Source: Flavipsychrobacter sp. (lineage in GTDB: Bacteria; Bacteroidota; Bacteroidia; Chitinophagales; Chitinophagaceae). Taken from it: DNA of 64,000 bases. The first letter of the stretch is position 1. Each line of letters begins with the position of its first letter. The stretch covers positions 1 to 64,000 of the forward strand of contig JAEUVZ010000026.1 in assembly GCA_016786665.1 (NCBI GenBank), given 5' to 3'. Below the pieces are notes generated by a model. That model ran no database searches and was not told where the DNA came from. It saw nothing but the letters and a program-made list of their open reading frames with translations. The position numbers were made by a program, and so were the translations under genes. This document shows positions 15,080 to 18,726 of this stretch, piece after piece.

Positions 15080-15308
15080 CTTACCAAGCTTATTTCTCCT
15101 TTCCGTCTTTGCCCGCCCGGCCATGATCTTTCGGGCGGGAGAGGAACGCCTGTCCGCCGACTAGGAGGAAAGCAATCTCGTAAGCGCGTTCTTGCTCGTG
15201 TAGGGTGTCCGGCCTAAGGCCTTTTCTACTATTTAGACACGGGTGCCCTGCGGAACACCCGCGCCAGTGAGGTACTAATAGGAAAGGGAGCTTGTTTGCT
15301 CCCTTTTT
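15080..15308 (+). ncRNA. Candidate structured RNA
   Basis: A GC-rich, gene-free segment inside AT-rich surroundings. Its ends pair: CAAGCT..CTCCTTTCC near 15083-15103 with GGAAAGGGAGCTTG at 15281-15294. Inside lie stem CCCGCCCG/CGGGCGGG, GGCC-TAA-GGCC, GTGTC/GACAC and GGGTG..CACCC. A T-tailed hairpin follows. It lacks the signatures of tmRNA, RNase P RNA, 5S RNA and SRP RNA. It could be a 6S-like RNA or a dispersed palindromic repeat; I cannot tell which. Strand is chosen from the terminator and is uncertain. Confidence 0.35.
15284..15308. terminator. Bidirectional terminator
   Basis: Stem AAGGGAGC / GCTCCCTT with loop TTGTTT and a T-run on the plus strand. An A-rich left side lets it also serve the minus-strand gene that ends at 15307. 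Confidence 0.75.
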
Positions 15309-15513
15309 AATTCATTATTTCTTTTCTCACGTTTTTTATTTCGGTAGACAGTCGCTCGACTTCTTCCTTTTCCTTTTCATATTCAGCAATTAGTTCATCA
15401 TCATCTTCAAAGTTCTCATTGGACTGTATTGTTTCTAGTATTTTTAACGACTTTTTTAGATGTTCTGCCATCTCCGTTACAAGTCGAATGTATAACTCCC
15501 TTGGTTGTTCCAT
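15307..15513 (-). CDS. Small coiled-coil hypothetical protein
   Basis: 68 residues, AT-rich like the large gene to its right. It is nearly all helix, with heptad-like spacing of Leu and Ile and many Lys/Glu (KKSLKILETIQ, EKEKEEVERLSTEI), so a coiled coil is likely. No signal peptide or membrane helix, and I do not recognise a family. It faces away from the HD/Hsp90-like gene, with a 200-base gap holding a palindromic repeat, so the two could share a divergent control region. Functional pairing with that gene is speculation. Confidence 0.55.
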   Translation of the reverse strand: MEQPRELYIRLVTEMAEHLKKSLKILETIQSNENFEDDDELIAEYEKEKEEVERLSTEIKNVRKEIMN

Positions 15514-15601: not shown

Positions 15602-15685
15602 TGGTATCGCCAATCTCGAGGTTGGCCACCGGTGGGACGTAGAGAAACTCTACGCCCAGCAGGGGTATTATCGATATACGCAATG
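15602..15685. repeat. Dispersed GC-rich palindromic element
   Basis: Two hairpins in tandem: CCAA-TCTCGAGG-TTGG, then TGGG-A-CGTAGAG-AAA-CTCTACG-CCCA (11 paired bases with one bulge). I have the impression of having seen very similar elements scattered in other Bacteroidota genomes. It lies in the gap upstream of the 999-residue gene, and no promoter could be picked out with confidence. Confidence 0.6.
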
Positions 15686-15726: not shown

Positions 15727-18726
15727 ATGCTAGACGATATTATAGAACTTCCAATTTGGAAACACTACAAAGGACTGAGTAACAAACAGGAATTCAGCCT
15801 TGAGCGCCTTTTTGAAACCCCCTACAGTTTGCTCGACAGATACTACGAAACATTTCCTCATTATACGCTACACAACAAACAACACTTAAAAAATGTATTG
15901 AGAATCATTGGAGAAATTTTAGGAGACAAAGTTAAAGAACTCTCTGAACTGGAATGTCTAATAATTATTATAAGTGTTGGTTATCATGACATTGGAATGG
16001 TTTTTGCAAAAAGTGAACTTAAGAATATTAGTCAGGAATTAAGCTTCATACATTTTCTTGATAAAAACTTAAAGGCTAAGCTAGAGTATGAAGAAAATGG
16101 TTCAGAATTATCCGAAAATCTCGCTGAATGGTATTGTCGTTGGATGCATGCTAAACGTGTTTGGAACTTCATAAATCATTTCGATCAAAATAAATGGAAG
16201 AATATTTCTCTTAGAACTAGTGTTGGTAATATTTGTGAGAGCCATAATGAAAGTGCAGATTTCTTAAACAACAAGGAAAAGTTTCCAAGGAACTTTTTAG
16301 GGGAAGCCGATTTGTGTTTCTGTGCTATACTGCTCCGCCTAGGCGACATTTTAGATTTTGATAGCACTAGGACACCAATTAGTGTCTATGAATTCTTAGA
16401 CCTCGATAGCCCTAAAAATGACGCTGAGGAAATCAGCAAAAAAGAATGGAACAAGCACTTAAGTTCAAATGGATTTTCTATAAAACATGAAAACAACAAT
16501 ACTGACCTTCTCTTTATAGCAGGACCAGAACACCCACAAGTAGAAAAAAATATCCACAATTTTCTTGACATAATTGACAACGAACTATACGAATGTGCTG
16601 TGTTATTAGAGAGTTGTTCAGACAAATGGAGAAAAATACAACTCCCTAAGAAAATTAACAGAGGAGGAATCATTTCAACAAACTACAAGAAAGGTGATTA
16701 TCGCCTTTCCTTGGACGAGAAACAAATTATTCATCTGTTAACAGGTGAAAATTTATACTCTAATAACTATATTTTCATTAGAGAATTGTTGCAGAATGCA
16801 ATAGACACTAGCAGGATGAGAGAATATCACCAGCATAGTAACGGAGATTTGGGTTTCAAAATTAGCCCCGTGGAAATCAATACATGGGTTGATGATAAAG
16901 GGTTTCGATGGGTCAGATTTGATGATTTTGGCATGGGTTTAAACGAATACATTATTCAAAACCATCTTTTAAAAAAAGGAAACTCATTTTACAAATCAGA
17001 TTTCTTTAAACTTCAAAAAAATCACTACAAAAAAACCATAAAAAAAGACTTTACGCCGATAAGCAGATTTGGGATCGGTCTTTTATCTTGTTTTATGCTA
17101 GGTGATACTATTGAAATTAATTCAAGATCTATAGCGATAAAGCAAACAAATACTGTCGAGCAAAAAATCCGTTTGTCAATTAATGGATTGGAAGGTCAAT
17201 ACTTCATGCAAATAGATAGCGAAAATCACACGCCACTTCCTATGCCTAATATCAATCCAGAAAATTCGTTTAGGAACGAATTTGGGACAAGTATAGCGGT
17301 GAGAATAAGTAGTAAAAAAGATTCACTACATTTTGAAAAACAACTAAATGAAGTCCTTAATGAAATTGTCCTTTGTTCACCAATTGACATATATCTTTCT
17401 GGGAAAAAAGTAAATATTGGTTTTGATATCCTAGACGAGCAAATTGTCGACTATTCATATATCCCATTTACACCTTTGCAAAAAAAGGAAATTGAAAAGA
17501 CAATTGACTTTGAAATCAACTCAGATATGGGGATTGAAATTATACCGATAGACTTAACATCTAATTGCCCTAATAATAATCTGAAAGGTCAAATAGCAAT
17601 TATACGGTTGAAATGTAGTTATCTTGAAGAACATAATTTACCTGTAAATACTTCTTATTCTTTTCACTTCTCAAAAAGTGCATTTCGCATAACATTTGAA
17701 AAAAACACATTCACTAATGGTAATAAAGATACTAAAGTCAGGTCGTTGTCTTTCTTCAATGAATTAAACACGCTAATTCAAACAAAAAATCTCAATAAAT
17801 TTCTAAGTCCTCAATACAACCACTCGAACTATCGTAACTACCTACATCTAATTCATAATGGAATTAATATTCCAAATTTTAGCGAAATCAGCGAACATAT
17901 CAAACTCCGTTTCGTGGATGGTTTGTTTGATTATAATAGTCGTATAAATCGAGGCGATTGGAGGCAAGCTATTTTCTACACAGGTTTGATTTATCTTCAA
18001 GATGACCTAATTCCAAACCTCACTGTCGCCAGAAATTCCATCAAAGGATTTAATTTCAGCATTTATTCAAACCTCGTCTATGGCTGCAGACAATTGAATG
18101 AATTCAGGAGAAACAGTAGTAACCCTTTTGATTTCTTTGATTACATATATGAACACTTCCCTATTTCCGAAATTAAAACAGATTATTTAATAATAAATGG
18201 ATATTGGAACGATGAGAAAATCATACCTATATATGGTCATGGCTTTGTTTCGGTAAATGATATAAAATTACTACTTGAAAAAAATTCTGTTGAGTTGGAC
18301 TATAAATATAGAAGCAGTGGCTTTGTAGTTACCTTGTTTCGCGCCCTTGTAGAATTGAACTTTGAAGTAGAGTTTGATGTTAAAGATGTAAATAGACCAA
18401 GATTTTATATTAAGTCTTCTAAACAAATCAACATGACAATATCAAGCATTGATTCATATGGGCCAATGTTATTTGTAAGATTTGACGGCGATGATATGTT
18501 GTATTGTTCTGACATGGTAAATATCAATCACTGGCTCCCAACATGGATGTATAGTAACCAAAAAATTCTAATTGACAACTATGAAACGTATTTTCTAAGT
18601 TTATACAACTATATCAAAGACAAAAACATTCATAGCATAAATAGCATCCTAAATCACTTTCGGAAAGTGCTAACTCATTCCGCTCCCCCTAACTTAGCAA
18701 TATCTGACCTCGACTATCCACATTGA
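15727..18726 (+). CDS. HD-domain plus Hsp90-like ATPase protein (HD-CE type), putative conflict-system protein
   Basis: 999 residues, AT-rich. Residues about 40-290 form an HD phosphohydrolase domain: His near 45-53, YHDIGM (His87-Asp88), MHAKR (His141), ESHNES (His173) and GDILDFD (Asp207). Residues about 330-480 form an Hsp90-like ATPase: FIRELLQNAID (N-box), FDDFGMGL (G1) and SRFGIGLLSCFMLGD (G2). The remaining 500 residues are unassigned, with beta-rich stretches. HD domains joined to Hsp90-like ATPases have been described as 'HD-CE' parts of NTP-dependent biological conflict systems. Action in phage defence is inference from that family and from the island context. No signal peptide, so cytosolic. 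Confidence 0.8.
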   Translation: MLDDIIELPIWKHYKGLSNKQEFSLERLFETPYSLLDRYYETFPHYTLHNKQHLKNVLRIIGEILGDKVKELSELECLIIIISVGYHDIGMVFAKSELKNISQELSFIHFLDKNLKAKLEYEENGSELSENLAEWYCRWMHAKRVWNFINHFDQNKWKNISLRTSVGNICESHNESADFLNNKEKFPRNFLGEADLCFCAILLRLGDILDFDSTRTPISVYEFLDLDSPKNDAEEISKKEWNKHLSSNGFSIKHENNNTDLLFIAGPEHPQVEKNIHNFLDIIDNELYECAVLLESCSDKWRKIQLPKKINRGGIISTNYKKGDYRLSLDEKQIIHLLTGENLYSNNYIFIRELLQNAIDTSRMREYHQHSNGDLGFKISPVEINTWVDDKGFRWVRFDDFGMGLNEYIIQNHLLKKGNSFYKSDFFKLQKNHYKKTIKKDFTPISRFGIGLLSCFMLGDTIEINSRSIAIKQTNTVEQKIRLSINGLEGQYFMQIDSENHTPLPMPNINPENSFRNEFGTSIAVRISSKKDSLHFEKQLNEVLNEIVLCSPIDIYLSGKKVNIGFDILDEQIVDYSYIPFTPLQKKEIEKTIDFEINSDMGIEIIPIDLTSNCPNNNLKGQIAIIRLKCSYLEEHNLPVNTSYSFHFSKSAFRITFEKNTFTNGNKDTKVRSLSFFNELNTLIQTKNLNKFLSPQYNHSNYRNYLHLIHNGINIPNFSEISEHIKLRFVDGLFDYNSRINRGDWRQAIFYTGLIYLQDDLIPNLTVARNSIKGFNFSIYSNLVYGCRQLNEFRRNSSNPFDFFDYIYEHFPISEIKTDYLIINGYWNDEKIIPIYGHGFVSVNDIKLLLEKNSVELDYKYRSSGFVVTLFRALVELNFEVEFDVKDVNRPRFYIKSSKQINMTISSIDSYGPMLFVRFDGDDMLYCSDMVNINHWLPTWMYSNQKILIDNYETYFLSLYNYIKDKNIHSINSILNHFRKVLTHSAPPNLAISDLDYPH

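Follow-up and report, generated by a model that had tools for sequence, protein, structure and literature searches.

A protein that joins an HD phosphohydrolase to an Hsp90-type ATPase in a single chain raises the question of what a chaperone-like motor might be doing beside an enzyme expected to act on nucleotides. Such a gene lies in the window, a 64,000-nucleotide stretch of a Flavipsychrobacter sp. contig, and a preliminary description had suggested that its product is an NTP-dependent conflict protein. To assess this suggestion, we analysed the gene and its locus, its domains and catalytic residues, its relatives, and the genes found beside them.

An intact, AT-rich gene in a variable slot

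The gene at 15727-18726 is a single uninterrupted ORF on the forward strand, with an ATG start, no internal stops and the 999-residue product given in the preliminary description, while the opposite strand contains many stops and no open frame. It is flanked by flxY, a flexirubin gene, on the left and by a yfcH-type epimerase-like oxidoreductase gene on the right. Both flxY and the nearest relatives of the protein mark the host as a member of Bacteroidota. The gene is AT-rich, as had been remarked, with a GC content of 33% (GC3 0.314) against ~60% in its neighbours (flxY, GC 0.586 and GC3 0.752; yfcH, GC 0.615). No Rfam match was found near the gene, PADLOC returned no family for the protein at E 0.1, and no PHROG model matched it.

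A terminator-like hairpin and a small divergent ORF lie between flxY and the inserted gene (Table 1), and two intergenic pieces, 15170-15269 and 15607-15666, recur elsewhere in the host genome (C32, C76, C39, C53, C55 and C59). Neither a partner effector nor any further defence gene lies next to the window copy, and its flanking genes include no nucleotide cyclase. The flxY gene is present in four of four congeners, with different sequence after it; in one of them (G001), a GIY-YIG-like ORF and a 1021-residue LRR-Roc/COR-TIR protein (L108:3264-6329) come after it. Since the content downstream of flxY differs among congeners, the slot is variable, and in G001 it held another conflict-type gene. 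The right flank (yfcH and an M20 peptidase gene) sits elsewhere in the congener genomes. The window also contains a second AT-rich patch (54-2642), which encodes two proteins on opposite strands, one whose match is to the C-terminal end of a model for type II restriction enzymes (REase_II, E 1e-55; DUF7226), the other a 660-residue HTH protein.

Table 1 Features of the gene, its locus and the 3-TM partner family. Positions are those of the window, except where a locus is named.
Feature	Position	Strand	Remarks
HD-CE/Hsp90-like ATPase gene, 999 aa	15727..18726	+	Intact ORF; GC 0.329
Terminator-like hairpin between flxY and inserted gene	15281..15308	+	
68-aa divergent ORF adjoining gene	15307..15513	-	Sub-threshold Pfam match at most; no TM segment
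HD-CE metal-dependent phosphohydrolase domain, residues 43-287	15853..16587	+	PF24391, E 2.3e-45; genome-level match with same coordinates
H49-N50-x-x-H53 motif	15871..15885	+	H-x3-H columns invariant; spacing as in class I phosphodiesterases
H87-D88, HD dyad	15985..15990	+	Invariant columns
H141, further candidate metal ligand	16147..16149	+	Invariant column
H173, further candidate metal ligand	16243..16245	+	Invariant column
D207, last HD metal ligand, in LRLGDILDFD	16345..16347	+	Invariant column
Hsp90-like N-terminal ATPase domain, residues ~327-564	16705..17418	+	Profiles, hhalign, predicted fold
N box, E353-L-L-Q-N357	16783..16797	+	GHKL catalytic Glu and Mg-binding Asn; E and N invariant
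G1 box, D400-F-G-M-G404	16924..16938	+	D, G, G invariant
G2 box, F448-G-I-G451	17068..17079	+	F, G, G invariant
Probable Hsp90-like middle (S5/transducer) domain, residues ~565-805	17419..18141	+	Whole model compared with TRAP1 N and middle domains
R769, candidate catalytic Arg	18031..18033	+	In D-x-L-x-P-x-L-x-x-[SA]-R; invariant in 14 members
C-terminal region, residues ~806-999	18142..18723	+	Ends in two long helices; pLDDT 80-95 at end
3-TM family copies	L140:11114-11578, L146:11585-12100, L152:11030-11512		Three predicted TM segments
3-TM family copies	L133:9666-10142, L165:8708-9376	-	Three predicted TM segments

Two conserved active sites in one chain

Profile searches recovered both of the domains named in the preliminary description. 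The Pfam HD-CE family matches the N-terminal part of the protein at 155.8 bits, against a curated cut-off of 27, and the expected metal ligands are in place: H53, H87, D88, H141, H173 and D207 are invariant, as is H49, both in an alignment of 20 diverse homologues, with identities down to about 16-20%, and in a 17-row alignment of closer relatives. The spacing of the HD-domain motif H-N-x-x-H (49-53), the HD dyad and D207 resembles that of class I cyclic-nucleotide phosphodiesterases. When the HD profile was searched against the PDB, 11 of 13 weak matches were phosphodiesterase (PDE) domains, at E values of 0.04-0.9 that are below significance, and no HD of the SAMHD1/dGTPase type appeared; likewise, 7 of 17 members weakly match PDEase_I (best E 0.015). 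This PDE-like spacing is a hint, read from sequence, at the substrate of the HD domain, and being closer to cyclic-nucleotide phosphodiesterases than to dNTPases, it would suit a signalling role better than a depletion role.

The second domain is related to the N-terminal ATPase domain of Hsp90 and HtpG. NCBIfam profiles match residues 327-479 with E values of 9e-20 and 2.5e-15, a PDB search aligned the domain with HtpG (2ior, E 7e-11), and hhalign against HtpG proteins of related genomes gave 99.4% probability over residues 343-560. The predicted ATPase fold superposes on the TRAP1 N domain with a Z score of 18.4 (2.6 A, 180 residues). All three nucleotide-binding boxes anticipated in the preliminary description are present, and E353, N357, D360, D400, G402, G404, G449 and G451 are invariant in the same two alignments. 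Because both active sites are kept at ~16-20% identity, their conservation is not due to chance. The protein nonetheless falls short of the HtpG equivalog cut-offs, scoring 56 against 371 bits (NF003555) and 70.7 against 455 (NF010683). In a fold search among viral proteins, the main matches were phage RIIA lysis-inhibition proteins, which have the Hsp90-like ATPase fold in common with it.

A probable Hsp90-like middle domain

The preliminary description had left 500 further residues unassigned. We modelled the whole protein with AlphaFold2 from the 17-row alignment (mean pLDDT 74) and compared the model with the N and middle domains of TRAP1, obtaining a Z score of 22.1 over 311 residues (4.2 A), in an alignment that runs ~240 residues past the ATPase region and into the TRAP1 middle domain. 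At the place corresponding to the Hsp90 motif DxxDLPLNvSRE, which carries the catalytic arginine, the window family has D-x-L-x-P-x-L-x-x-[SA]-R, with D759 and R769 invariant in 14 of the 14 members that reach the region. On the other hand, hhalign of the C-terminal 440 residues against HtpG gave no middle-domain match, and residues 556-999 folded alone reached Z scores of at most 4.1, with Piezo helices at the top, followed by Hsp90 middle domains and GyrB/TopoIV transducers at Z ~3. With the isolated fold weak and the profile silent, the assignment draws on the whole model and the arginine motif, which together suggest that residues ~565-805 are probably an Hsp90-like middle domain with R769 as candidate catalytic arginine. 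The unassigned portion thereby shrinks to the residues beyond ~806, for which fold searches gave no clear match.

Accessory distribution across phyla

Full-length copies are absent from all four congeners, and among 119 relatives there is one, in a Flavipsychrobacter-type MAG, at 35% identity; conservation at this locus is therefore not seen among close relatives. Beside that Flavipsychrobacter homologue lies a gene for a 1390-residue protein with weak nSTAND/NACHT matches (L139:3001-7170). A profile-guided scan found 17 loci in Bacteroidota, Chlorobiota, Bacillota, Actinomycetota, Cyanobacteriota, Pseudomonadota and Poribacteria, so that at least seven phyla are represented among the close relatives. 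Some of the HD-CE/Hsp90 genes are split in two ORFs (L150:7983-11077 and L096:7056-10394), through a frameshift or a natural split. A minority of Bacteroidota genomes encode looser HD-CE plus HATPase proteins, whose C-termini vary.

In a tree of the relatives, the window protein groups with proteins of Sediminibacterium and Flavipsychrobacter, its nearest relatives being in Chitinophagaceae at ~35% identity, and the tree as a whole does not sort by phylum, its starred branches forcing at least two changes for Bacteroidota. More distant members are plasmid-borne in several phyla, and Shedu, type I restriction, integrase, AbiEii, SIR2, TIR and Abi genes lie near the plasmid homologues. Single-sequence scans of genome contigs and of viral contigs found no relative, nor did an alignment-based scan of the viral contigs; the empty viral scans lend no support to viral carriage. 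A housekeeping role was rejected on this distribution; the window gene was probably acquired horizontally and is accessory.

Effector-type genes adjoin homologues

Neighbourhood analysis of homologues, which the preliminary description had proposed as a check, revealed recurrent effector-type neighbours. SLATT_2 genes adjoin three actinobacterial homologues (E 1e-18 to 4e-36), and in each of these three genomes (7-12 Mb) the adjoining gene is the sole SLATT_2 found; in Phytohabitans, where the main gene is in two ORFs, SLATT_2 follows the second. A SLATT_2 gene was also seen in a Thiotrichaceae genome (L166, G593:C185), with no HD-CE/Hsp90 gene near it on the stretch read. In Cohnella, the genome's sole CAP12/Pycsar-type TIR gene lies 4 bp upstream of the homologue, and TIR-type genes occur near homologues in a Tannerellaceae MAG, in a Chitinophagaceae-family genome and on a Zymomonas plasmid.

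The third partner is a small family with three predicted transmembrane segments (3-TM), with no Pfam family above cut-off, whose genes lie directly 3' of the homologue in an alphaproteobacterium, a cyanobacterium and an actinobacterium, and adjoin a homologue on a Pantoea plasmid. Adjacency served to define the family, which makes chance estimates for its first three neighbours unfair; fair tests are the genome-wide searches made for the partners, that for the 3-TM family showing five copies across 18 genomes or records, all adjoining HD-CE/Hsp90 genes, and the fifth copy itself, which was found blind in Paractinoplanes maris (G597) and overlaps the end of a second HD-CE/Hsp90 gene not seen before. 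Neither at the window nor at the loci of the closest sister genes is there a recognised partner, and no cyclase was recognised among the annotated partner genes at the homologue loci inspected.

Discussion

Our analysis favours, with modest confidence, reading the window protein as an accessory protein of immunity, its HD nucleotide phosphohydrolase gated by an Hsp90-type clamp. This reading is supported by the domains and their invariant residues, the patchy spread, the AT-richness, the TIR gene in the same slot of G001 and the effector neighbours of relatives. Against it speak the solitary position of the window copy, the missing PADLOC match, the PDE-like spacing of the HD motif and the weak signal of the middle domain in isolation. 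In the mechanism that we envisage, the clamp, formed by the N and probable middle domains, would sense a cue linked to infection, and its ATP-driven closure would switch on the fused HD-CE phosphohydrolase, which would then hydrolyse nucleotides and stall either phage replication or the host cell. The window protein and its sisters in Bacteroidota would act alone, while in other lineages the same switch may be coupled to a second effector, be it a SLATT or 3-TM membrane protein or a TIR protein. For the window protein, we infer the trigger, the direction of gating, the nucleotide substrate and the antiviral effect. The earlier suggestion of an NTP-dependent conflict protein is thus consistent with an accessory gene in a variable slot, with multi-phylum and plasmid-borne relatives and with effector adjacency, short of being proven by them.

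The chief rival takes the HD domain to be a signalling phosphodiesterase that makes or removes a regulatory nucleotide, with the effector a separate protein, encoded next door (SLATT, 3-TM or TIR) or, for solo copies, elsewhere in the genome. The H-x3-H, HD and D residues are indeed arranged as in class I PDEs, the weak structural and PDEase_I matches point the same way, and for proteins such as SLATT_2 and CAP12/Pycsar-type TIR, gating by nucleotides is to be expected. However, the PDE similarity stays below significance, no annotated partner gene was recognised as a cyclase, and a recognised partner is missing for the window gene and those closest to it, which disfavours this alternative at the window in particular; we regard it as possible, though doubtful.

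A non-immune Hsp90 paralogue, acting in chaperoning or stress with the HD domain as a regulatory element, would account for the homology of the N domain to HtpG and for the predicted Hsp90-like N and middle core, but the genome carries its own HtpG, the HtpG cut-off of 371 bits is far off, and a chaperone would not be expected to be patchy in its spread, to sit in an AT-rich island, to be carried on plasmids or to adjoin effectors, so that we judge such a role very improbable. Least probable in our view is that the gene is recently captured cargo, inactive or unexpressed: dispersed genomic repeats lie upstream and a partner is missing, yet the 999-residue frame is intact and every catalytic residue is kept at ~35% identity to the nearest relatives.

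The pairing of domains is not new. Nicastro, Burroughs, Iyer and Aravind, writing in NAR in 2023, reportedly predicted by computation that HD-CE is coupled to HSP90-related modules, with HD-CE said to be a nucleotide-degrading immune effector and HSP90 an analogue of STAND; the remark in the preliminary description that families of this layout have been proposed as defence components agrees with this prediction. The HD-CE/HSP90 pairing having already been predicted, the window gene adds a member: like the predicted conflict systems, it combines HD-CE and an Hsp90-like ATPase in one chain and is accessory, mobile and patchy. With HtpG and Hsp90, the protein has in common the N-terminal ATPase domain and probably a middle domain with a catalytic arginine, but it differs from them in its extra N-terminal HD domain, its different C-terminus and its accessory rather than universal occurrence.

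Among characterised systems, Clover offers a precedent for a regulated HD hydrolase, since its phage-defence effector CloA is an HD dGTPase switched by dTTP and p3diT (PMC12265719), and by analogy this would support the immune reading. The likeness between Clover (CloA and CloB) and the predicted role of the window protein lies in an HD nucleotide hydrolase under allosteric control; in contrast, the window locus is without an NTase partner, Clover is without an Hsp90 module, and the HD subfamily and the pattern of metal ligands differ. CBASS and Pycsar use the same effector types as are found beside homologues (Cap12/PycTIR TIR and SLATT), but no cyclase was recognised at the homologue loci inspected and there is none at the window locus. 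A literature search found no experimental work on the HD-CE/Hsp90 family, and a limited one found no description of the 3-TM partner family or of what is probably an Hsp90 middle domain carrying the candidate arginine.

Returning to the immune reading, a more specific and tentative version, which we hold to be rather unlikely as it stands, is that a complete Hsp90-type clamp serves as a pathogen sensor that, on binding a client or on closing, gates a PDE-like HD domain and thereby a nucleotide signal, with effectors exchangeable by lineage (SLATT, TIR or an obligate 3-TM partner not named before) and the HD domain acting alone in Bacteroidota. The partners gathered here (SLATT_2, 3-TM and CAP12-type TIR) show which operons to clone first. 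In plants and animals, Hsp90 helps immune receptors; if the proposal is true, the Hsp90 machine would itself do the switching, in one chain with an enzyme that cuts nucleotides, and the family would provide a testable case of chaperone ATPases as sensors.
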